Positions 8,992 through 39,330 of a DNA stretch of 41,314 nucleotides are shown piece after piece. The stretch is taken from assembly GCA_009784235.1 (NCBI GenBank), contig WRCC01000002.1:48373-89686 (forward strand). The letters are read 5' to 3'. The notes beneath the pieces are model-generated. The model was not told where the DNA came from. It saw only the letters and a list, made by a program, of their open reading frames with translations, and ran no database searches. This DNA is from Alphaproteobacteria bacterium. GTDB taxonomy: Bacteria > Pseudomonadota > Alphaproteobacteria > Rs-D84. Position 1 is the first letter of the stretch. Every line of letters begins with the position of its first letter. The position numbers and the translations under genes were made by a program.

Positions 8992-11455
<2,464 letters not shown>

Positions 11456-11481
11456 GAAAATAATATGGAAAATTAGATACT

Positions 11482-11512
11482 AGATACCAGATAGTAGATA
11501 CTAGATATTAGA
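11482..11512. repeat. Left arm of inverted heptamer repeat
   Basis: Tandem 7-bp units of the form AGATANN; perfect inverse of 11886-11916. It overlaps the stop codon of the four-helix-bundle gene. Further units extend to about 11474. Confidence 0.9.
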
Positions 11513-11873
11513 CTGCAACATTGTTATATCTGGTGGTCTTTGTTGTTGAAATTAATAACTTCAAAACTTCTTCACAATCAGCCTTTATACTATCAAATTG
11601 CGGTTGTGTTATGTGTTTGGCTTCATATAATAATTCCAGCCAATTTAGCGTTTCTGCGCATTCTTTAAGAGCAATGTGGGATTTTGATAGAAAATCGCTT
11701 CTGCTTATGGCATAAATGGCTTCCGCCATATTTGCGCTAATACTTGTGCCAGAGCGTAAAATTTGATTGGATATTGCCATCGGACATCTGTTTGTCCGTA
11801 AATATTTATCAAGACGGATAACCCTTGCTGAAAATCTTTTACATTTTTCTAATGTGATACTATCTCTCGACAT
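11508..11873 (-). CDS. Four-helix bundle protein (S23/IVP family)
   Basis: A 121-residue helical protein of the family first seen in 23S rRNA intervening sequences, structurally akin to the Avd protein of diversity-generating retroelements. Diagnostic segments are present: QILRSGTSISANMAEA at about residues 37-52, SRSDFLSKSHIALKECAET, then NWLELLYEAKHI. The ATG at 11873 is preceded by an AAGG. The last codon and stop fall within the left inverted repeat. It is encoded in the same direction as pilR upstream and gyrB downstream. The biochemical function of this family is not established. No reverse transcriptase gene is present in this window. Confidence 0.88.
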   Translation of the reverse strand: MSRDSITLEKCKRFSARVIRLDKYLRTNRCPMAISNQILRSGTSISANMAEAIYAISRSDFLSKSHIALKECAETLNWLELLYEAKHITQPQFDSIKADCEEVLKLLISTTKTTRYNNVAV

Positions 11874-11885
11874 ATGAAAACCTTA

Positions 11886-11916
11886 TCTAATATCTAGTAT
11901 CTACTATCTGGTATCT
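11886..11916. repeat. Right arm of inverted heptamer repeat
   Basis: Perfect inverse of 11482-11512. It lies between the start of the four-helix-bundle gene and the stop of pilR, 13 bases from the former and one base from the latter. Confidence 0.9.
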
Positions 11917-11917
11917 A

Positions 11918-16525: not shown

Positions 16526-17467
16526 CTATTTTTCGGTTTCAATAACCTCGTAATTCTCTGGGTCTGCAAACAATTTTCGCAGCGCCAAATTATTCAAAGC
16601 ATGTGAACCCTTGTAACTTTCCACACGACCAACAATGCGGCCACCGGACGTGTACATATCGCCCAGAATATCAATGATTTTATGCCGTACAAATTCATCC
16701 GCCCAGCGCAGCGGATTCAATGTACCATCGCCTGATTCATTCAGTGCAATAACATTATTTTCATTCGCGCCGCGACCCATTCCACGTTTTTTCAACCATT
16801 CCCATTCATGCAACGAACCGAACGTCCGCGCCGCCGCAAAGTTTTTGATAAAATCATTGTGCGATTTTGCCGTACCGTCCGATATAAATTCCGCAGATTG
16901 CCGACCGATAATTTTATCCGGATACACCAGCGTCGCATCAACAACCATACCCCGATTGTCCGGCGACAATCGCACAAATCCGTCGCTTTTGCGACCTTTG
17001 ATAAAGTTATTAATTAAAAACGCCATACGCGTCGCAAATGGCATCTGGCGAATAATTTCGATGCGCCGCGCAATGATTTCTTTTTTAATTATTATCTTTT
17101 TCGAATTTCGAATTTCGAATTTCGAATTTCGTCCAAGCATTTCGCAGAACTGCTTGGCGCTGCCGTCCAAAATCGGCATTTCGGGGCCGTTCATTTCGAC
17201 CAAAGCCGCATCAATACCCATAATATAAAATGCCGCCATTAAATGTTCAATCGTTTGTACATGTGCGCCATTTGGGTCACCAACGGTTGTATTTTGCAGC
17301 TTTGATTCACCAACCTTATTATACCGCGCCGAGATAAGTTCTGATTTTAAATCTGTCCGCTTGAAAAAAATACCCGGCTTGTCATACGGCTTTATAACCA
17401 TATTTGCCGGCAATCCCGAATGCATTCCAATACCCGAAATTTTGATTGGTTTTGATACAGTATGCAT
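16526..17467 (-). CDS. lpxC: UDP-3-O-acyl-N-acetylglucosamine deacetylase
   Basis: Zinc deacetylase that commits the pathway to lipid A, 313 residues. The zinc and catalytic residues are in place: TIEHLMAA near residue 73 (Glu and His), FVRHKIIDILGD near 262 (His and Asp), and the catalytic His in GSHALNNLAL. Between the two domains, at about residues 113-123, the peptide RNSKFEIRNSKK is encoded by a tandem 7-bp array (17099-17131) and does not belong to the family; the flanking sequence is intact. The start overlaps the lpxK stop by one base (TAATG), so it is coupled to lpxK, an uncommon pairing since lpxC usually follows ftsZ. Confidence 0.95.
   Translation of the reverse strand: MHTVSKPIKISGIGMHSGLPANMVIKPYDKPGIFFKRTDLKSELISARYNKVGESKLQNTTVGDPNGAHVQTIEHLMAAFYIMGIDAALVEMNGPEMPILDGSAKQFCEMLGRNSKFEIRNSKKIIIKKEIIARRIEIIRQMPFATRMAFLINNFIKGRKSDGFVRLSPDNRGMVVDATLVYPDKIIGRQSAEFISDGTAKSHNDFIKNFAAARTFGSLHEWEWLKKRGMGRGANENNVIALNESGDGTLNPLRWADEFVRHKIIDILGDMYTSGGRIVGRVESYKGSHALNNLALRKLFADPENYEVIETEK
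17099..17131. repeat. In-frame heptamer array in lpxC
   Basis: 4.7 tandem copies of TTTCGAA. It encodes RNSKFEIRNSK in lpxC. The same peptide pieces (EIRNSKFE) occur in topA from a related array at 30280-30307. Confidence 0.92.
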
Positions 17468-18408
17468 TATTTAACCTTTTCTTTTAACCATTTGAAAAAC
17501 GCTGGCTCTATGGTGATGGTCAACGGCGCAACCAAAACCAATTTCTGCCATTTTGGTGACAAGCGCACATGGTCTTTCGCAGTCGTTACTAATTTCATAT
17601 TTTGCGCATCCGCAGTTTTTTTCATATCAATTAATTCGCGTTCGGAATATTGATGATGGTCTGGAAACGTACGTGACATAAAACCTTTGATACCACGGAT
17701 TGTGCGCAGCGCATCGAAAAACTTGCCCGGATATCCAATGCCCGCAAATGCAAAGATTCGCGGCGCACCGACCGGTTTGGCCGTTTCCGTCCCCGCATAA
17801 AAAATTGGTATTTTTGAATTTATTTTTTTTATTTTTGTTGATAGACTTTGTTCCCCTATTATTATAACCGCATCTGCACGTTTGATGCCGGAACACATCG
17901 TTTCACGAAGCGGGCCGGCCGGTAATAAAAAACCATTCCCAACACCAATTTTTCCATCAAAAACCAATATGGAAATATCTTTTTTTATGGTCGGATTTTG
18001 AAAACCGTCGTCCATAATTATCGGTAATTTATGATTTATGATTTCTGATTTCTGATTTAATTTGGTTATATTTTTAACCCTGTCCCCGACATATACATCT
18101 ATGCCTGCTTTTTGTAACATTTTTGCTTCGTCACCGCCTTTGTACCCGCGCATAACTACTGGTGATTTCAGATATTTTGCGATTTCGGCAACAATTGGCG
18201 TCTTACCAACCCCACCCGCCATTATATTACCGATGCAAATTACTTGCCGCGCCATAGCAGTGCGCAGGCGGGCCGGTCTTTTTGATGTTTTTTGCCGAAA
18301 AAGCCGGGAAATAAATACTAATTTGCTGACCAACCAATAAATTATCGAAAATGGCAATAATGCAATTGCAATAAAATTTCGTTTCAAAAACCAATTTGGT
18401 GTGCGCAT
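17467..18408 (-). CDS. lpxK: Tetraacyldisaccharide 4'-kinase
   Basis: Membrane-associated kinase that phosphorylates the lipid A disaccharide at the 4' position, 313 residues. The P-loop is GNIMAGGVGKTP at about residues 60-71. The N-terminal helix (IAIALLPFSIIYWLVSKL) anchors it to the membrane. MDDGFQNP is the family motif with the catalytic Asp. FPDHHQYS and TTAKDHVRL close the enzyme. At about residues 116-128, just before MDDGFQNP, the peptide NQKSEIINHK is encoded by a 5-copy heptamer array. Both ends overlap their neighbours by one base (TAATG). Confidence 0.95.
   Translation of the reverse strand: MRTPNWFLKRNFIAIALLPFSIIYWLVSKLVFISRLFRQKTSKRPARLRTAMARQVICIGNIMAGGVGKTPIVAEIAKYLKSPVVMRGYKGGDEAKMLQKAGIDVYVGDRVKNITKLNQKSEIINHKLPIIMDDGFQNPTIKKDISILVFDGKIGVGNGFLLPAGPLRETMCSGIKRADAVIIIGEQSLSTKIKKINSKIPIFYAGTETAKPVGAPRIFAFAGIGYPGKFFDALRTIRGIKGFMSRTFPDHHQYSERELIDMKKTADAQNMKLVTTAKDHVRLSPKWQKLVLVAPLTITIEPAFFKWLKEKVK
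18027..18061. repeat. In-frame heptamer array in lpxK
   Basis: Five 7-bp units (ATTTATG, ATTTATG, ATTTCTG, ATTTCTG, ATTTAAT). The first 34 bases are identical to 32461-32494 inside mrdA and are translated in the same frame there (LNQKSEIINHK). Confidence 0.95.
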
Positions 18409-21417: not shown

Positions 21418-21515
21418 CATAGATACTAGATATTAGATACTAGATATTAGATAAATGTCCAATTAAAAATTCACTTTACTATCTGCTATCTAGTATCTAA
21501 TATCTAGTATCTATG
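21418..21515. repeat. Inverted heptamer hairpin without an ORF, covering the sufD-like start codon
   Basis: Arms 21418-21453 and 21480-21515 are inverted repeats matching at 34 of 36 positions, built of AGATAYT 7-bp units, with a 26-bp loop. The arms belong to the same sequence family as those around the four-helix-bundle gene (shared AGATACTAGATATTAGA). The ATG of the sufD-like gene is the last three bases of the right arm. Confidence 0.92.
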
Positions 21516-22232
21516 TCATATTTATGGGAAAAATTTAATATCAAAACATTTCCAGCGCGACCGCTGGTGTTTGCTGATGGTGAATTTCAGCCAGAATTAT
21601 CCGATTGTGACGCTGCAAAATTGGAAATTAATGATAATAATATTGAAATAATTGTTGATTCGGCCGGCGAATTGCCAATTCATATAATATACGTCGGTGA
21701 AATTATTGGTGATAAAGTAATAAAAATAAAACAATCCGAATCTCGAATCTCGAATCTCGAATCTCGAATTTATTTGACCGCAAAACTGTCAAATAAATTA
21801 CCGGCCTTTTTGACGTTTTTTATCGATTCGGCCGGGAAAAATTCCAAAATTAATGCAAAAATCGTGATTCAGAACTTTTCTGGGCTGAAACTGAGTATTT
21901 TTGCCGACCACTTGGCCGAAAATACCGGCCTTTTCGTGCAAAATCGTGTTTTGGCGCACGCCGGTTCTGAAACCGAACTTTACGGATTGGCCAAAATTGT
22001 CGGCGATTGCCCAGACTGCGAATCTGATATATCTTTTACCGCGATGTGTGCGCCGGATGCAAAAATTACCATGTCGCCAAATCAAAGAATCGTATCCATT
22101 CCGAAATCCGCCGAACATTCGGCCAGTATTTACCGCGGGACGCAGCCACAAATCCAGTATTTGGCCGCGGCCGGACTGACGCCCGACCAGATTAAAACCA
22201 CTCTTGAAAAAGCATTTTTAGAATTATCTTGA
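21513..22232 (+). CDS. sufD: Short SufB/SufD-like protein
   Basis: A 239-residue protein resembling the C-terminal beta-helix part of SufD/SufB, scaffold partners in Fe-S cluster assembly. The best match is the C-terminal end, where SAEHSASIYRGTQPQIQYLAAAGLTPDQ follows the family pattern of a His-containing strand, then a Tyr-Leu, a Gly turn and a final helix. It is much shorter than the roughly 400-residue norm, lacking the N-terminal region. At about residues 75-86 the peptide SESRISNLESRI comes from a heptamer array. The ATG lies at the tip of the inverted repeat arm, with no Shine-Dalgarno. No other suf gene is nearby. Family moderately sure; function uncertain. Confidence 0.6.
   Translation: MSYLWEKFNIKTFPARPLVFADGEFQPELSDCDAAKLEINDNNIEIIVDSAGELPIHIIYVGEIIGDKVIKIKQSESRISNLESRIYLTAKLSNKLPAFLTFFIDSAGKNSKINAKIVIQNFSGLKLSIFADHLAENTGLFVQNRVLAHAGSETELYGLAKIVGDCPDCESDISFTAMCAPDAKITMSPNQRIVSIPKSAEHSASIYRGTQPQIQYLAAAGLTPDQIKTTLEKAFLELS
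21735..21769. repeat. In-frame heptamer array in the sufD-like gene
   Basis: Five 7-bp units (TCCGAAT then four CTCGAAT). It encodes RISNLESRI, the same nonapeptide that the inverse-oriented array at 30131-30162 encodes in topA. Confidence 0.95.
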
Positions 22233-26889: not shown

Positions 26890-28532
26890 ATTTCCGACAA
26901 AGCAGATGATTTTTCCAGTGACTTTTCAATTTCGGAATCAATAAATTTTATTTTACTAATTATATCCTGTTGGACATTTTCTGTGGCATTCAACATTTTT
27001 GTTGTCAAATCTTTCTTTTCATTTTGCAGATTTTGAATATAGTTTTTCAACTTTAAAGACACGATAAATTTTTCCGCATCATTATATGATAAGTTCGAGG
27101 TTTGAAGTTTGAAATTTGAAAAATCAGAGTTAATACCAACCTTAGCTAAAAACTCTGCATGTTTTTCAATCAATTCTGGATACGCCACTGCAATTTCGGA
27201 TAGTGTTTTTTGTGTGAATGTGTCGACTTTCGGAATTTCAATTGATTCTCTTTTTCCTTTTTCTCTCTGCCACTTATGCCACCGATTAAATTTTCTTTGG
27301 TCGAATTCCACGCGGAATTCGTTTTTAAGATTTGGGTCGGTGATTTTTTCAATTTCAGTTTTTAAGAATTTTTCTGCCTGGGTCCGACCATTCGGTGTGT
27401 TAATAACAAAATTCTTGTTCGCGATATTCCATAAAAAATCGACCAGTGGAATTGCGGAATCGATAATTTTTTTCATGACGCTTGTGCCGCCCGGCGTACG
27501 CAATATGTCATCCGGGTCTGTGCCGGTCGGCATAAATACAAATCGTACATCCGAATTATCGCGCAGCAATGGCATCACAATAGACGCGCCGCGCGCCGCG
27601 GCTTTCTGGCCCGCGCCGTCGCCATCGAAACAGAAAATAATATTCCGATTTGCCTTGGCCAAAATTTGCAAATGGTCTTCGGTCAGCGCGGTGCCCAGCG
27701 GCGCAACAGTTTCACCAAACCCATGAATTTGCATCTGGATTGCATCAATTTGACCTTCGACAACAATTGACCGGTTTGCTTTGTAAATCGCATCGCGTGC
27801 GAAATTTAATCCAAATACAGTTTTGCGTTTATGGAATAATTCTGTGTCTGTTGTGTTTATATACTTTGGTTCACTGCCGTCCATTGACCGCCCACTGAAC
27901 GCGATAACCTGGCCATTTGGATTAAATATCGGAAACATTAATCGGTTACGGAAAAAATCATACGCGCCGCGTTCATTCTGGCGCACCAGACCAGTCGCCA
28001 TAACGTTTGATAATTTTTGGTCGCTGAATTTTGCCGCAATTGTATTAAATTTATTCGGCGCAAAACCCAGACGATACTTTTTAATAACTTCATCTGAAAA
28101 TCCGCGTTTGCGTACATATTCCAACGCGGCCGCACCATCCGACGACCACAGAGCATTTTGATAAACGCGACACGCATTTTCCATTATATCGAAATAAGAT
28201 TGTTCGCGGGCCGCTTGTTCCGGCGATTTCGGCCGAAATTCTGGCATTTTCATTCCGGCCGCCATCGCCAATTCTTTGATAGCGTCGATATATTGCATAT
28301 TTTGCGATTTCATAACGAACGAAATAATATCGCCGTGTTCACCGCATCCGAAACAGTGGTAAAAACCCTTTGATTCATTGACCGAAAAAGACGGAGTTTT
28401 TTCATTATGAAAAGGGCAGCATCCCCAGAAATTATGACCTTTCTTGGTCAGCGGAACGCGTTTGCCCACAATGTCAACAATGGACAATTTCGCGCGCAAT
28501 TCGTCGTTAAAATGGTTGGAACTTCCGGCCAT
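26886..28532 (-). CDS. dnaG: DNA primase
   Basis: Primase of 548 residues making RNA primers at the replication fork. The N-terminal CHC2 zinc finger is CCPFHNEKTPSFSV with HCFGCGEHGD. The catalytic core includes YRLGFAP and FRNRLMFPI, then the TOPRIM domain with VVEGQIDAIQM and FCFDGDGAGQKAA. The C-terminal helicase-binding part is short and poorly conserved. At about residues 471-480 the peptide SNFKLQTSNL is encoded by a heptamer array in a linker. A consensus promoter ends six bases before the ATG, implying a leaderless mRNA. It follows topA on the same strand. Confidence 0.96.
   Translation of the reverse strand: MAGSSNHFNDELRAKLSIVDIVGKRVPLTKKGHNFWGCCPFHNEKTPSFSVNESKGFYHCFGCGEHGDIISFVMKSQNMQYIDAIKELAMAAGMKMPEFRPKSPEQAAREQSYFDIMENACRVYQNALWSSDGAAALEYVRKRGFSDEVIKKYRLGFAPNKFNTIAAKFSDQKLSNVMATGLVRQNERGAYDFFRNRLMFPIFNPNGQVIAFSGRSMDGSEPKYINTTDTELFHKRKTVFGLNFARDAIYKANRSIVVEGQIDAIQMQIHGFGETVAPLGTALTEDHLQILAKANRNIIFCFDGDGAGQKAAARGASIVMPLLRDNSDVRFVFMPTGTDPDDILRTPGGTSVMKKIIDSAIPLVDFLWNIANKNFVINTPNGRTQAEKFLKTEIEKITDPNLKNEFRVEFDQRKFNRWHKWQREKGKRESIEIPKVDTFTQKTLSEIAVAYPELIEKHAEFLAKVGINSDFSNFKLQTSNLSYNDAEKFIVSLKLKNYIQNLQNEKKDLTTKMLNATENVQQDIISKIKFIDSEIEKSLEKSSALSEI
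27093..27120. repeat. In-frame heptamer array in dnaG
   Basis: Four 7-bp units (GTTCGAG, GTTTGAA, GTTTGAA, ATTTGAA) in the C-terminal linker of primase. Confidence 0.88.
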
Positions 28533-28569: not shown

Positions 28570-30912
28570 TTATTTTTTCCGGCCCCATGCCTTTTTCGCA
28601 GATGGTTTTTTGTTATTAATTAAATCTGCAGCGGTATCTAAATCAGGTTGTTCTTTGACCGAAACATTGACTTTGTTTGATGAAATATACGGGCCGAATC
28701 GTCCGGTCGGATAGAATAAGATTTCTTTGTCGGTTGCGGGATTTGTGCCCAATTTTATCGGTTCAGCCTTTGCACCGCCGGCCAACAATTCTTTGGCGAT
28801 ATCAAGAGTAATCGTTTCCGAATTATATTGCTTGGCGGATGCGCGCTTTGCATCTTTGCCGATGCCCTGTTGCACATAAGGCCCAAATCGTCCAACCAGA
28901 AACTTTATATCTTCGCCCAAATCTGTGTTTCCGGTGGCGGTTGTGTTGGCGGACTTATCGTCTGTATTACTTGCACTTACACTGTCACTTGCACTCAGGT
29001 TTTTCGTATATTTACATTCTGGATATTTATCACAGCCCAAAAATGCGCCATAGCGGGATACTTTTAATTCCAATTTACCAGCACATTCCGGACACGAATT
29101 ATTTTCATCCGGGAATAAATGCGATGCCAAATCTTCGTTTATCCCTGCGATAATTTCTGGCGTTGGAACATCTTTCGCAGATGCCAAAACTTTACTGAAC
29201 GGATTCCAGAATGCGGCGAGTGCCACCAATCTTTTCTGTTCGCCCGCCGCGACTTCGTCCAAAGTATCTTCGGTTTTTGCAGTAAAATCCACTGCGACAA
29301 TATCGGCGAAATAACGTGATAAAAATGCCGCAACGACCCAACCGGATGGCGTTGGAAAAAATCTTTGTTTATCGATTTTCACATATTCGCGGTCAACAAT
29401 CGTGGACATAATCGCTGCGTAAGTCGACGGGCGACCAATACCCAATTCTTCCAGTTTTTTTACCAAAGATGCTTCGGTATATCTTGGTGGTGGCATCGTA
29501 AAATGTTGTTCGGGCAGCAATTTTGTAATATCGATTTTATCGCCAACGGCCAATGGCGGCAATTTTGCTTCTCCGTCTTTGGTGTCTTCTTTATCATCTT
29601 CGTCTTCGATATAAACCTTCATAAATCCGTCAAATGTGCGCGTTGTGCCGACTGCGTGGAATACCGCGTCGGTATGATTTGTTTTTAAATCAACGACAAC
29701 AGAATCAAATTCTGCGTTGTTCATCTGGCATGCGACCGCACGTTTCCAAATCAAGTCATACAATTTATACTCATCGCCTTCCAGTTCTGAACCGATTTTA
29801 TTAGCATCTGTCGGACGAATTGCTTCGTGTGCTTCTTGGGCATTTTTTGATTTAGTCGTATAAACGATTGGTGATTTCGGCAAAAATGCATCGCCGTATT
29901 TCGCACCGATAAATTCGCGGATTCCAGCAACCGCATCGGACGACAAAGTCGTCGCGTCGGTACGCATATAAGTGATGTAACCCTGTTCGTATAATTTTTG
30001 TGCCACGCCCATTGTGCGTTTAGATGAAAATCGTAATTTCCGCGCAGCTTCTTGTTGCAGTGTTGAAGTTGTAAATGGCGCCGCCGGCTTGCGTGATGTT
30101 TTCTTTTTTTCTACACTCACTACGCTCGCCGAGATTCGAGATTCGAGATTCGAGATTCGATTAATATCATCCGGTTCTTTATATTCACCCGATAAAGATT
30201 GTAAAATTGAAAACATTTTTTCTTTGTTCTCAATCGACAATTTATCAATTTTTTCACTGTTGAATTTGGTCAGATTGGCTTCGAATTTCGAATTTCGAAT
30301 CTCGAGTTTCGTCGGGGCACAAAGTGCCCCGAGAGACCAATATTCAACCGGCTTAAATGCTTCGATTTCGCGTTCGCGGGCAACTACCAGTGACACAGCC
30401 ACAGATTGAACACGACCCGCAGATTTGCCCAGATTGCGACGCCATAATACAGGTGATAATTTAAACCCAATTAAGAAATCAAGTGCGCGGCGGACCAAAT
30501 AAGCATCGACCAGATTCTGGTCAATTTCGCGCGGATTTTCGATTGCAAGCGTTACGGCCTTTTTTGTAATTTCATTAAAGACTACGCGGTAAATTGGTTT
30601 GTCTTTCAATACGCCGCGTTCGTTCAGAATGTCCAAGACATGCCAAGAAATTGCTTCCCCTTCGCGGTCCGGGTCGGTTGCCAAATACAGTGCATCGGCT
30701 TTTTTCATTGCATCCGCGATAAGTTTTATCTGTTTTTCTTTACCAGGCATAATTTGCCATGTCATTGCGAAATCTTTGTTCACATCGACACTGGCTTCTT
30801 CCGGAACCAAATCGCGTACATGACCAACGGACGCCAAAACTTTCCAATCATTGCCCAGATATTTTTCAATGGTCTTTGATTTTGCCGGAGATTCCACAAT
30901 TAAAAGTTTCAT
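28570..30912 (-). CDS. topA: DNA topoisomerase I
   Basis: Type IA topoisomerase of 780 residues relaxing negative supercoils. The TOPRIM domain starts LIVESPAKSKTIEKYLG; the acidic cluster is LATDPDREGEAI. The catalytic Tyr is in GYITYMRTDAT near residue 315. One C-terminal zinc finger is seen (CPECAGKLELK, then CDKYPECKY), followed by two Topo_C repeats (VGRFGPYVQQG and TGRFGPYISS). Three repeat-derived inserts break family-variable loops: about residues 194-211 (palindrome plus heptamers), 251-261 (RISNLESRIS) and 638-648 (a Ser-rich hexamer run). An AAGGAA site precedes the ATG. It lies downstream of rodA and upstream of dnaG. Confidence 0.97.
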   Translation of the reverse strand: MKLLIVESPAKSKTIEKYLGNDWKVLASVGHVRDLVPEEASVDVNKDFAMTWQIMPGKEKQIKLIADAMKKADALYLATDPDREGEAISWHVLDILNERGVLKDKPIYRVVFNEITKKAVTLAIENPREIDQNLVDAYLVRRALDFLIGFKLSPVLWRRNLGKSAGRVQSVAVSLVVAREREIEAFKPVEYWSLGALCAPTKLEIRNSKFEANLTKFNSEKIDKLSIENKEKMFSILQSLSGEYKEPDDINRISNLESRISASVVSVEKKKTSRKPAAPFTTSTLQQEAARKLRFSSKRTMGVAQKLYEQGYITYMRTDATTLSSDAVAGIREFIGAKYGDAFLPKSPIVYTTKSKNAQEAHEAIRPTDANKIGSELEGDEYKLYDLIWKRAVACQMNNAEFDSVVVDLKTNHTDAVFHAVGTTRTFDGFMKVYIEDEDDKEDTKDGEAKLPPLAVGDKIDITKLLPEQHFTMPPPRYTEASLVKKLEELGIGRPSTYAAIMSTIVDREYVKIDKQRFFPTPSGWVVAAFLSRYFADIVAVDFTAKTEDTLDEVAAGEQKRLVALAAFWNPFSKVLASAKDVPTPEIIAGINEDLASHLFPDENNSCPECAGKLELKVSRYGAFLGCDKYPECKYTKNLSASDSVSASNTDDKSANTTATGNTDLGEDIKFLVGRFGPYVQQGIGKDAKRASAKQYNSETITLDIAKELLAGGAKAEPIKLGTNPATDKEILFYPTGRFGPYISSNKVNVSVKEQPDLDTAADLINNKKPSAKKAWGRKK
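28969..28998. repeat. Hexamer tandem repeat in topA
   Basis: Five 6-bp units of ACTTGC type. They encode LSASDSVSAS between the zinc finger and the first C-terminal repeat of topoisomerase I. Confidence 0.75.
30131..30162. repeat. In-frame heptamer array in topA (I)
   Basis: Four GAGATTC units plus a partial one. It encodes RISNLESRIS, shared with the sufD-like protein. Confidence 0.95.
30280..30332. repeat. Heptamer array plus palindrome in topA (II)
   Basis: Four 7-bp units of TTCGAAT type (30280-30307) are followed by a hairpin TCGGGGCAC-AAA-GTGCCCCGA (30312-30332). Together they encode SLGALCAPTKLEIRNSKFE, whose second half matches the lpxC insert. Confidence 0.93.
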
Positions 30913-32105: not shown

Positions 32106-33907
32106 TATTTCGTTCTCAGTATTTCCCGCATTACGCCGGCGGCCGTTTGTGCAGCTGGGCCGGATGTTCCAGAATGTTCTGTGATAACAGATACAGCATA
32201 ACGCGGATTATCCAGCGGTGCGTATCCGACAAACAAACCATGATTTCGCAAATGCCGTGATAATTGGTTTCCGGTGCGGATTCCGGTTGCGCGTTCTTCG
32301 GCGCTGATGCGGCGAACTTGCGATGTGCCGGTTTTTCCACCCATGCGTGCACCATTAATATTTACAGCAGAACCAAACGCAGTACCACCCTGCTCCAACA
32401 CTTTTCGTAATCCATCCATTACCAATTTGATATTTTGTTCTTTAAGCCCAAGGTCTTCAAATTTATGATTTATGATTTCTGATTTCTGATTTAAGACCAG
32501 TCGCGGAATAATGATTTTATTCGATACTGCCCTTGCCTGCATAACGCATAATTGCAAACAGTTGGTCAGTATGAATCCTTGGCCGATACCAGATATAATC
32601 GTATCGCCGTGTTGCCAACGCGTGCGGATGTTTTTTTCTTTCCATTCGCGGTCTGGCATAATTCCAACTGTTTCGCGCGGCAATTCATTTAATAGTCGCG
32701 TGGCCAATCCCAATCGCAATGCCATTGCTTTTATTGCATCAATTCCAATGCGCAATGCGATTTGATAAAAATAAATATCGCAAGAATGCGCCATTGCGCC
32801 GACCATATCCATCCATCCATGACCATGTTTTTCCCAGCAATGGTACATATGCCGCCCGTATTCCCAGTAACCCGGACAGTGTATTTTTTCCGTTGGTGTT
32901 ACCGCGCCGGATTCCAGCGCGGCCAGCGCGACAGCAATTTTAAATGTTGACCCGGGTGGATATAACCCCTCTATTGCCTTGTTCATAAATGGTTTCAGCG
33001 GGTCGCCCCGTAATTCTGCCATAATTTCCGGACCGTCTTCGGACCGAAAAGAATCCGGATTAAACGTCGGTGCAGATGCCATCGCGATTATATTTCCGGT
33101 TGGAATATCCATTACAACACCGCATCCGGCATCGTGTGACGCCAACAATTCTTCCAGCCGTCTTTGAATCGGTTCACGCAATGTTGTTATTAAATCATGG
33201 CCGTTTACCGGTTTTACTTCGCGGGATTCGTCTTCACCGACAATGCGTCCCATTGCATCGACGCTGATGACCGATTGACCAGGCGTGCCGGCAAGATGTT
33301 CGTTAAATTGGCGTTCCAACCCTGCTTGGCCCGTCATTAAGAACGGACTATCGTTCGCAGTGCGCATATCAGTTGCGCGTAAATTTGTTGCGCCACCAAC
33401 ATATCCAACAACATGCGCGGCGGATGTGCGTCCCGGATACCGACGTGAAAATCCATGTTCGATATATACGCCGGAAAGTTCTGATGCGCGAAATGCAGCG
33501 ATTTGTTCAAACGTTGCACTTTCTTTGACGATAACCGGCGAAAATCCACGTGCAGCGGTTATGCGGCGCAGCGCGCGCGCCAAATTCTGCGGCCGCAATC
33601 CGGATTCACGCGCAACCAATTCCAACAAAGCATCCATATCGCGCACTTCGGCTGGAACAATATATATTCGATATACTGCATCATCACGCGCCAACGCAAC
33701 GCCATCGGATGCCATGATTTTCCCACGAATTGGTAAATTAACACGCACGCGGAAAGTATTGTTTTCGGCCAAACGACGATATTTTTTATGTTGAAAAACC
33801 TGTAATTGCAACATGCGCATGACCAAAATACTGGTCAGCAAAACACCGCCGGTAATAAACAGCGCAGAACGTCTATCAAAAGTACGGGATACTTCCCAAT
33901 CTAGCAT
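32105..33907 (-). CDS. mrdA: Penicillin-binding protein 2 (transpeptidase)
   Basis: Class B PBP of 600 residues, the cross-linking partner of RodA. An N-terminal membrane anchor is at about residues 14-33 (LFITGGVLLTSILVMRML). The catalytic Ser lies in PPGSTFKIA (SxxK) near residue 322. The second motif is AHSCD, in the SxN position but with Asp in place of Asn, and KTGT is in MGGKTGTSQV. At about residues 471-482 LNQKSEIINHK is encoded by a heptamer array identical over 34 bases to the one in lpxK. It sits between mreD and rodA with a one-base overlap to rodA. Confidence 0.95.
   Translation of the reverse strand: MLDWEVSRTFDRRSALFITGGVLLTSILVMRMLQLQVFQHKKYRRLAENNTFRVRVNLPIRGKIMASDGVALARDDAVYRIYIVPAEVRDMDALLELVARESGLRPQNLARALRRITAARGFSPVIVKESATFEQIAAFRASELSGVYIEHGFSRRYPGRTSAAHVVGYVGGATNLRATDMRTANDSPFLMTGQAGLERQFNEHLAGTPGQSVISVDAMGRIVGEDESREVKPVNGHDLITTLREPIQRRLEELLASHDAGCGVVMDIPTGNIIAMASAPTFNPDSFRSEDGPEIMAELRGDPLKPFMNKAIEGLYPPGSTFKIAVALAALESGAVTPTEKIHCPGYWEYGRHMYHCWEKHGHGWMDMVGAMAHSCDIYFYQIALRIGIDAIKAMALRLGLATRLLNELPRETVGIMPDREWKEKNIRTRWQHGDTIISGIGQGFILTNCLQLCVMQARAVSNKIIIPRLVLNQKSEIINHKFEDLGLKEQNIKLVMDGLRKVLEQGGTAFGSAVNINGARMGGKTGTSQVRRISAEERATGIRTGNQLSRHLRNHGLFVGYAPLDNPRYAVSVITEHSGTSGPAAQTAAGVMREILRTK
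32461..32495. repeat. In-frame heptamer array in mrdA
   Basis: Five 7-bp units. The first 34 bases equal 18027-18060 in lpxK. It sits in a variable loop of the transpeptidase domain between the PRLV and LGLKEQNI segments. Confidence 0.95.
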
Positions 33908-36978: not shown

Positions 36979-39330
36979 ATGCGTTGGACACTTGATTGGT
37001 TAAAAGATTATTTGGATACGGATGCGACGGCAGATGGAATCGCAGATACTTTGACGCGTATTGGACTGGAAGTCGAAGACATTGAATATCCAATTGTTCC
37101 AATTGCGGCAAAGATTGTTGAATGCGATGTGATTCCGGATACTCATTTACATTTGTTACGCGTTGATGATGGCACGGACAATTTGCGACAAGTCGTATGC
37201 GGCGCGCCGAACGCGCGATGCGGCCTCGTATCCGCGCTTGCCCTGCCCGGTTGTAAAATCGGCGATATGGAAATCAAATCCGGAAAAATTCGCGGCGTCC
37301 TGTCCGATGGCATGATGTGCAGCGGAAAAGAACTGGGCATCAACAACGGCCACGAAGGCATTATTGAATTGGATGAAGCAGTCGAAACAATCGGCGAATC
37401 AATTTCACGAGCCACCAGCCACCAGCCACCGGTCGTCTTTGATGCGGGAATTACTCCAAATAGGCCAGATTACTTGGCGGTACGTGGAATTGCGCGGGAC
37501 TTGGCTGCGTCCGGAATCGGCAGTTTCCAACCTCCAACTTCCAACTTCCAACTTTCGGACAATCCGGGAACAAAAAAAGCGGTAATTGAAAACTATGCCG
37601 CGTGCCCGGTTTATTGCCTTTGCGAAATTAAAAATATCAAAATGGTATCGTCAAGTTCGAAAATTGCATCACGCTTGGCCGCCATTGGAATTACGCCGCG
37701 GAATAGCTGTATCGATGCGACCAATTATGTTTGCTATGATATCGGCCAACCGATGCATTGCTTTGATGCTGATGAAATAGTGGGCGACATAACAATTCGC
37801 AACGCGGCAACAGGCGAAAAATTCACAGATTTATTTGGCGCGGAACATGAATTAATTAGTACTGATTTGGTAATTGCTGACGATATCGGAATTCTTGCGC
37901 TGGCCGGAATCATCGGCGGCGCGCGCGGTATGACCACAGATGCGACGAAAAATATAGTTTTAGAATCTGCATATTTTGCATCTGTTGGCATACGAAAGAC
38001 TGCGAAACGATTGGGCTTGCAGACCGATTCGTCATACCGTTTTGAACGCGGTATCGACCCGACAATTGCAATGCAAGGAATCGCAGCGGCCGTGAAAATA
38101 ATCCATGATACATGCGGAGGTGAAATTACCGACACTTATATGACCGGCGAAATACCGCGTGAAATACGTAAAATCGAATATCGCCCTGGCCTGTTCAAGC
38201 AAAAAACCGGGATTGATTTACCTGTTGACAAACAGAAAGAAATCTTGGAGTTGCTTGGATTCGGAATAGAAATATCCGATGATAAATGGGTTGTTGTGCC
38301 AACGCCTGCGCGTGTTGATGTGGTGATTCCGGAAAATATAGTCGCAGAACTGATAAGAATATATGGTTATGAAAATATAAAAACGGGGGTCTGGAAACAG
38401 GAAACGGGAAATATAAATCAGAAATCAGAAATCAGAAAACAGAAATCGGCCTTGGCGGTGCGCGGATTTAACGAAATCGTATCCTATAAATTCGGCGATT
38501 CAAAAAAAGAATCTTTGCTGTCCGACCGGCCGCAAGTTCATGTTATTAATCCAATTATCGATACATTCGACACAATGCGAAATTCATTGGTCCAAGGCGC
38601 GCTGGACGTTATTGCAAACAATGACCGGTTCAGGCGGTCTAATTTGGCTTTATTTGAATTTGGTGCAGTATTTGATGGCAACCATCCGGGTCAACAGCAT
38701 GACCAATTAATAATCGCACGTACGGGTATATATGGCGACAAAATCGGCGTCAAGCACGGCCATGAAGTATCAATCTATGACATACGTGAAGATTTACTGG
38801 CATTATTCCCGGGCGCAATGGTTGAAAATGACACAGCGCCGCAAAAATGGAGCCATCCATTCCGCGCCGGTCGCATTATCAAAGACGGTGCGCCAGTTGC
38901 ACGATTCGCAGAATTGCATCCGGTAATTGCTAAAAAATTCGGCATAAAAACCAAGGTTGTAATTGGTTTGATTGATAATGTTTCAGCGATTCCAGAACAA
39001 AAAATTCAAACGCAAGCCAACAGCACGAGCCACCAGCCACCAATCAATGATTTCCCCGATTTCCCGCTTATCACGCGCGATTTCGCATTTATTGTGGATA
39101 ATTCTGTATCACCGGATAAATTGTTTGAAAATATCATGGTGAATAATTCATTGGTATATGAAACCAATATATTCGATGTGTTTGACTTGGGTGATGGCAA
39201 GAAATCGGTTGCGCTGGAAATCGTAATCCAGCCGACCGGCAATATGTCAGATACAGATTTAATGGATTTGCAGAATAAAATTATTTCTGAAATTGAATCC
39301 AAATTCGATGCAAAAATTCGGGATAAATAA
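36979..39330 (+). CDS. pheT: Phenylalanyl-tRNA synthetase beta subunit
   Basis: Large subunit of 783 residues. It contains the N-terminal tRNA-binding OB domain (about residues 40-145), the B3/B4 editing region (PRNSCIDATNYVCYDIGQPMHCFDAD, about 235-260), the B5 domain, the catalytic-like core and the C-terminal ferredoxin-fold anticodon-binding domain (LITRDFAFIVD to the end). The total length matches the family although four repeat arrays interrupt it at about residues 144-152, 183-192, 471-490 and 681-690, all in variable loops: before FDAGITPNRPD, after ARDLAASGIG, in the core, and in a linker before the last domain. It is separated from pheS by one base and followed by a terminator. Confidence 0.97.
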   Translation: MRWTLDWLKDYLDTDATADGIADTLTRIGLEVEDIEYPIVPIAAKIVECDVIPDTHLHLLRVDDGTDNLRQVVCGAPNARCGLVSALALPGCKIGDMEIKSGKIRGVLSDGMMCSGKELGINNGHEGIIELDEAVETIGESISRATSHQPPVVFDAGITPNRPDYLAVRGIARDLAASGIGSFQPPTSNFQLSDNPGTKKAVIENYAACPVYCLCEIKNIKMVSSSSKIASRLAAIGITPRNSCIDATNYVCYDIGQPMHCFDADEIVGDITIRNAATGEKFTDLFGAEHELISTDLVIADDIGILALAGIIGGARGMTTDATKNIVLESAYFASVGIRKTAKRLGLQTDSSYRFERGIDPTIAMQGIAAAVKIIHDTCGGEITDTYMTGEIPREIRKIEYRPGLFKQKTGIDLPVDKQKEILELLGFGIEISDDKWVVVPTPARVDVVIPENIVAELIRIYGYENIKTGVWKQETGNINQKSEIRKQKSALAVRGFNEIVSYKFGDSKKESLLSDRPQVHVINPIIDTFDTMRNSLVQGALDVIANNDRFRRSNLALFEFGAVFDGNHPGQQHDQLIIARTGIYGDKIGVKHGHEVSIYDIREDLLALFPGAMVENDTAPQKWSHPFRAGRIIKDGAPVARFAELHPVIAKKFGIKTKVVIGLIDNVSAIPEQKIQTQANSTSHQPPINDFPDFPLITRDFAFIVDNSVSPDKLFENIMVNNSLVYETNIFDVFDLGDGKKSVALEIVIQPTGNMSDTDLMDLQNKIISEIESKFDAKIRDK
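37411..37431. repeat. Heptamer array in pheT (I)
   Basis: Three units GCCACCA, GCCACCA, GCCACCG. It encodes TSHQPP, shared with pheS and with array IV of pheT. Confidence 0.85.
37525..37552. repeat. Heptamer array in pheT (II)
   Basis: Four units TTCCAAC, CTCCAAC, TTCCAAC, TTCCAAC. It encodes FQPPTSNFQL. Confidence 0.9.
38393..38448. repeat. Heptamer array in pheT (III)
   Basis: Eight 7-bp units grading from GGAAACA to GAAATCA. The second half encodes NQKSEI, the same hexapeptide and frame as in lpxK and mrdA. Confidence 0.9.
39021..39045. repeat. Heptamer array in pheT (IV)
   Basis: About three and a half units of the CAGCCAC type. It encodes STSHQPPIN, again the TSHQPP peptide. Confidence 0.82.

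Follow-up and report, generated by a model that had tools for sequence, protein, structure and literature searches.

Proteins of the S23/IVP family are widespread and structures of them have been solved, and we know of neither a function for them nor a catalytic domain or motif in IVP. REP/RAYT systems consist of one gene flanked by inverted short repeats, accompanied by dispersed inverted pairs of these repeats that lack the gene. The 23S rRNA intervening sequence (IVS) of Coxiella burnetii, about 430 nt long, contains an S23p ORF and ends in inverted repeats of ~28 bp, and its stem includes GACAGAT heptamers in tandem, more of them in some strains than in others (PMC4990558). Xanthomonas genomes carry arrays of GGGAATC in 70–75 convergent inverted pairs each (PMC4692102), and for the TAACTGA arrays of Beggiatoaceae the author suggested that a repeat-binding protein might be the mobile element (PMC4679880). 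Heptanucleotide arrays—in cyanobacteria, Xanthomonas, Beggiatoaceae, and the Coxiella 23S insert—have been noticed before without an agent, and a search of largely open-access literature found no link between S23/IVP proteins and heptamer arrays in general. The layout described here, an IVP gene between such arrays, suggests a type of mobile element not recognised so far, which would also account for dispersed 7-base repeats; the repeats would thereby gain a candidate agent, and the protein a candidate substrate.

Architecture of the element

Within the window (the whole 41,314-nucleotide stretch analysed), a gene for a 121-aa S23/IVP four-helix-bundle protein (11508..11873, minus strand) lies between a left terminal heptamer array, (TAGATAN)n (11474..11512, plus strand), and the inverse of that array on the right (11884..11917, minus strand). 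An earlier note on this DNA had described 31-bp perfect inverted repeats of 7-bp units around one complete S23/IVP gene with its stop codon in an arm, located between pilR and gyrB. The enclosed gene and its stop codon at 11508–11510, inside the left arm, were borne out, as were the perfect heptameric repeats; the exactly paired arms, 11481–11512 and 11886–11917, are however 32 nt rather than 31, one base longer on each outer side, and are 100% complementary with 373 nt between them. The right array adjoins the stop codon of the upstream gene, which is not pilR but encodes a type II secretion F-like protein (T2SSF, PF00482; 11918..13024, minus strand), whereas gyrB (Pfam DNA gyrase B; 8992..11391, minus strand) had been correctly placed downstream.

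The protein belongs to the S23/IVP family by its matches to PF05635 (81.1 bits, cut-off 33.8, E 8.4e-23) and to TIGR02436 of NCBIfam (90.2 bits, cut-off 24, E 9.3e-26), and its AlphaFold model has the four-helix bundle of that family (pLDDT 95.9). In Foldseek, the nearest solved structures were 2rld (TM 0.88) and 2gsc (about 0.79), both members of the same family, followed by bAvd (4dwl, 0.76), and the search also placed IVP near chains of DGR RNPs. The 2gsc entry, which is XCC0516 of Xanthomonas campestris ATCC 33913, and the 2rld entry each list five chains, which would form a functional pentamer.

In ungapped inverted-repeat scoring the element reached 32 at best, compared with 6–11 in matched windows; period-7 arrays were absent from shuffled sequence, and the predicted RNA fold had a z of -5.6, so that the arrangement is not a product of chance. 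With its complementary 32-nt ends, the transcript would form the stem around the ORF that had been proposed earlier and that is typical of an IVS. When the order of heptamers was shuffled within the arms, a similar complementarity was obtained (p = 0.12 for the window; median p 0.85 over 38 elements), and we discarded exact mirror symmetry as a sign of a stem maintained base by base. The significant feature is the presence of two arrays of one heptamer in opposite orientation, not the exactness of the mirror, and as the arms share a word rather than a base-by-base mirror, word recognition is favoured over a conserved long stem.

The window also contains a gene-less mini-element that is cognate with the IVP element (21420..21513, no strand assigned), in which a TAGATAN array and an inverted array are separated by a 25-nt spacer; its predicted RNA fold is -46.3 kcal/mol (z -10.95). 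Further heptamer families, TTTCGAA, ATTTATG, and CGAGATT among them, fall within open reading frames, at 17099–17131 (lpxC), 18027–18059, 21733–21769, 27091–27120, 30130–30160 and 30280–30311 (topA), 32461–32493 (PBP2), 37406–37430, 37525–37554, and 38415–38447, where they translate into peptides, for example NSKFEIRNSK and SNLESRIS. The words of these in-frame families were not found with any IVP of this genome.

Recurrence across phyla

We counted a locus as having inverted arms when its ungapped inverted-repeat score was at least 12, a value not reached by matched control windows at the family level (at most 11). Within the genus, inverted repeats surrounded 13 of 13 IVP genes; nearly all of these repeats were heptameric, with another heptamer for almost every copy. 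The score of 12 was reached by 36 of 39 IVPs in the family sample; in the rest of the class, inverted arms flanked all 15 strong matches and none of three weak, distant ones. A further set of IVPs had them in 19 of 20 cases. Across the phylum, 16 of 28 loci had inverted arms, and several others were arrayed on one side. A cross-phylum set comprising Desulfobacterota, Nitrospirota, Planctomycetota, Bacteroidota, Chloroflexota, CPR, and others, which was found with a three-sequence alignment and represents one IVP subfamily (the window IVP belongs to the other), showed inverted arms in 46 of 70 loci versus 6 of 708 matched control windows. The best arm period in these 46 elements was 7 in 35, 6 in seven, and 8 in four. 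Annotated plasmid IVPs (Nostoc, Calothrix, Trichormus, Azospirillum) had inverted arms in six out of six cases. Because loci within a genus are related by descent, the counts are not independent of one another, and more weight attaches to the distribution over many phyla. Arms that were weak, one-sided, or missing (12/28 phylum-level and 24/70 cross-phylum IVPs) count against the mobile-element reading.

The earlier note had suggested a search for other IVP genes with AGATANN arms. Inverted, mostly period-7 arms do recur around IVP genes in many phyla, but AGATANN itself is confined to the window's own IVP lineage; other IVPs use other words. IVP presence was patchy (35/142 genomes), with 12 matches in one relative (G006) and a single IVP in the genome of the window.

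Heptamers and protein lineages

Among 82 elements with clear arms we counted 72 distinct heptamers. Where two proteins were at least 70% identical (three pairs only), their words always differed by at most one base; at 60–70% identity, 15% of pairs had words no more than one base apart, and below 50% the agreement was at chance level. TAGATAN-armed IVPs of two relatives (G002, G017) are 68–74% identical to the window IVP, and that of G006 is 63% identical. By these comparisons the heptamer is private to each IVP lineage and common only to closely similar IVPs, a pattern expected if protein and word change together; common descent of whole elements could also give it, and by itself it falls short of proving recognition. 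Genomes rich in IVPs, such as G006 with its 12 matches, provide natural protein–word pairs from which a specificity code might be read.

IVPs evolve under purifying selection: dN/dS was 0.02–0.20 over 16 element pairs, arguing that the protein is maintained, and the ORFs were intact in nearly all copies.

Gene, arms and orthologous sites

Element copies at different sites were homologous from arm to arm, where the homology ended (L001/L007, -69..+53; L010/L013; L036/L039). The junction of T2SSF and gyrB had been proposed for comparison in relatives lacking the gene, and in several of them it held neither IVP gene nor arrays—an empty site. In a sister genus, an IVP upstream of lepA was missing in many species, and alignments crossed the empty lepA-leader site, which had no arrays. 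Between nuoC and nuoD of two close species (L080/L088), the flanks were 94% identical, the IVPs 63% identical in DNA, and the arms and heptamers unrelated. Several same-site pairs had elements more alike than their flanks (for L031/L032, 99.7% versus 85–88%), as lateral exchange would give, while other pairs showed no such excess. Judged from these alignments, arms and gene behave as one unit: comparison of orthologous sites between species shows it either complete or missing altogether; no transposition event between strains was observed. Together with the recurrence in many phyla and the own-genome array matches described below, the empty sites support the earlier idea that gene and arms form a mobile unit terminated by the heptamer arrays.

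IVPs recur in the nuoC–nuoD gap of several alphaproteobacterial families (L080, L088, L059, L075, L078, L089, L096), and close species hold different IVPs there.

The neighbours of IVP genes were diverse, including gyrB, lepA, nuoD, gltX, and cyanobacterial nrd genes. By automatic ORF calling, and with many of the loci orthologous to one another, the IVP gene pointed the same way as its two neighbours in 130 of 162 loci and was antisense to both in three, suggesting expression from host transcripts or insertion at the RNA level. This 130:3 bias is unlike an indifferent DNA transposon and speaks against a mobile DNA element; it is not absolute, as two of the six plasmid copies were antisense.

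Dispersed arrays and gene-less pairs

In samples of 100–400 kb per genome, five IVP-bearing genomes had 9–27 period-7 arrays per 100 kb and few of other periods (80 arrays of period 7 in 400 kb, compared with at most two of any other period); a 100-kb sample of one IVP-free genome had no period-7 arrays. Triples of TAGATAN occurred in five of 134 family genomes, and in four of these five an IVP has TAGATAN arms. The arrays outnumber IVP genes and exist also without them: G005 has 21 TAGATAN matches, yet its three IVPs all lack arms of this kind, and G000 has several array families alongside one IVP, which indicates that arrays outlive a cognate IVP or do without one. Counted per pair, 12-mers common to an array outside the IVP elements and an IVP arm were ~3–28 times as frequent within a genome as in comparisons with 37 IVPs from other genomes. 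The words of arrays elsewhere thus match the heptamer of the resident IVP, in keeping with the link between arrays and protein family that had been surmised from the window.

Neighbouring arrays in the IVP-bearing samples formed 40 inverted pairs and one direct pair. The inverted pairs were bimodal, with either a gap of at most 150 bp and no gene (39 pairs) or a distance of 330–480 bp and an IVP inside. Arms around many unrelated single genes would have spoken against an association with IVP; in the five samples, pairs at 330–480 bp enclosed IVP genes only. One inverted pair (G000:C2:193815-194147) enclosed no whole gene, its second array lying within a coding frame. Within an inverted array pair, at L293 13845–13965 (G000:C2 about 193,850–193,960), lies a long imperfect palindrome (ACTGGATTGC...GCAATCCAGT), possibly another repeat family.

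The mini-elements are homologous copies at several sites: three AGATAG mini-elements of G006 have a common 70-nt loop at unrelated sites, and in G008 loops are common to mini-elements with different heptamers. At two G008 loci (L280 14945 and L282 5237), arms of different heptamers surround a 33-nt loop that is 91% identical, as if the arms had been exchanged. An origin of gene-less pairs by internal deletion of IVP elements was dismissed, as their loops do not match IVP genes. Arrays of GGGAATC were not found in number among the genomes examined.

Search for partners

PF05635 was the only domain of IVP, and no transposase was found for the element. The Y1 transposase family PF01797 had no match in G000 and scattered weak matches elsewhere. 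Target-site duplications were absent from 118 elements, in which the mean common flank substring was 3.19, compared with 3.15 after shuffling. Reverse transcriptase (RT, PF00078) had no match in G000 or in G017. Across 142 genomes, RT was present in 17 of 35 with IVP versus 38 of 107 without, a weak difference that is probably due to chance, and for want of an association across genomes we rejected RT as a partner. DGR-like RTs occur in several IVP-rich genomes; in G006 (genome about 1.1 Mb), one lies beside its own Avd-like gene (L307 300–2343). A known RNA family was ruled out, as Rfam returned nothing for the element or for ten related loci and found only two tRNAs in the window, and a defence system was rejected, with no PADLOC match.

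Interpretation and alternatives

The recurring unit, its private word, the dispersed cognate arrays, the presence or absence of the element as a whole, and the purifying selection on its protein are best explained, with a probability that we put at roughly 0.6, by one copy of a mobile family: a single S23/IVP gene bounded by inverted arrays of its own short word, usually 7 bp, which IVP would recognise, with gene-less copies served in trans. We infer that an IVP oligomer would recognise its own heptamer, either as DNA or as the RNA or single-stranded DNA stem formed by the arms, and bring the element ends, those of gene-less copies included, to a nuclease or polymerase of the host or of other origin, not encoded by the element. 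The recruited enzyme would then copy the element ends to new intergenic sites. In the transcript the stem would probably be cut by RNase III, as in 23S rRNA intervening sequences, and we propose that the stem would make insertions inside transcription units tolerable. Should mobility be confirmed, movement would occur without a known recombinase.

The sense bias within transcription units, the way that elements adjoin neighbouring genes, and the stable predicted RNA stems would also suit a regulatory or RNA-processing cassette, in which IVP binds RNA, the arrays are mRNA-binding or RNase III sites, the dispersed arrays form a regulon, and movement is incidental. The Coxiella IVS is indeed cut by RNase III in its heptamer-containing stem (PMC4990558), and a translational role has been proposed for TAACTGA arrays (PMC4679880). 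Yet a regulon has no need of a different word for each IVP, and neighbours as unlike as gyrB, lepA, nuoD, gltX, and the nrd genes, the patchy presence in 35 of 142 genomes, and homologous mini-elements at unrelated sites fit such a cassette poorly; we regard it as unlikely. A retroelement served by an RT in trans, with the excised stem RNA copied back, would account for the sense bias by RNA-level insertion and for the resemblance of IVP to bAvd (Avd being the partner of a DGR RT) and to DGR RNP chains, and DGR-like RTs do occur among IVP-rich genomes. Against this stand the probably fortuitous co-occurrence of RT and IVP, the two RT-free genomes G000 and G017, and the Avd-like gene that the RT locus of G006 already possesses, making this account quite improbable.

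The surplus of arrays over IVP genes and arm lengths that vary like slipping repeats would be expected if the arrays were independent simple repeats acting as insertion hot spots, in or between which an IVP gene merely lands. Empty sites had no array, however, the arms were always inverted rather than two halves of one interrupted array, the heptamer tracked the protein lineage, and the IVP-free sample was devoid of arrays, so that we hold this origin to be very improbable. Least credible of all is that the element is an inert remnant whose gene and arms are decaying, a view put forward for S23p of Coxiella, where decay has been reported (PMC4990558); a single IVP in this genome would agree with it, but dN/dS values of 0.02–0.20 in 16 pairs, ORFs intact in nearly all copies, and several same-site pairs in which the element is better conserved than its flanks argue to the contrary.

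Comparison with known systems

Like the 23S rRNA IVS, the window element is about 430 nt long and has a PF05635 protein and terminal inverted repeats enclosing its ORF; unlike them, it sits between protein genes, here T2SSF and gyrB, and so do the others studied, rather than in a 23S rRNA helix. The Coxiella IVS paper (PMC4990558) describes neither a rule of heptamers in general nor words private to an IVP, nor dispersed pairs that lack the gene. STRRs and heptanucleotide SSRs of cyanobacteria, Xanthomonas, and Beggiatoaceae resemble IVP arrays as dispersed 7-bp arrays; the Xanthomonas and Beggiatoaceae papers (PMC4692102, PMC4679880) do not mention S23/IVP, whereas the arrays sampled here match resident IVPs. 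With MITEs and insertion sequences, IVP elements share non-autonomous copies with inverted ends and patchy insertion, but neither a transposase nor a target-site duplication was detected in them. DGR Avd has a homologous fold (TM 0.76) and is a partner of nucleic-acid machinery, as IVP might be, although IVP has no RT or template repeat beside it and no association with RT.

It is about an even bet that S23/IVP elements constitute a bacteria-wide mobile class with no recognisable recombinase, in which protein and private code co-evolve and whose dispersed gene-less products would make up much of the STRRs of bacterial genomes; the 23S IVS would be a special case. REP/REPIN-RAYT systems likewise have a gene between inverted repeat copies and gene-less inverted pairs of the same repeat dispersed elsewhere; they differ in using a Y1 protein and single palindromes in place of a four-helix bundle and tandem heptamer arrays. 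On our best reading, the IVP element has a REP/RAYT-like layout but an unrelated protein, and IVP would provide the specificity for the heptamer code of its own element.
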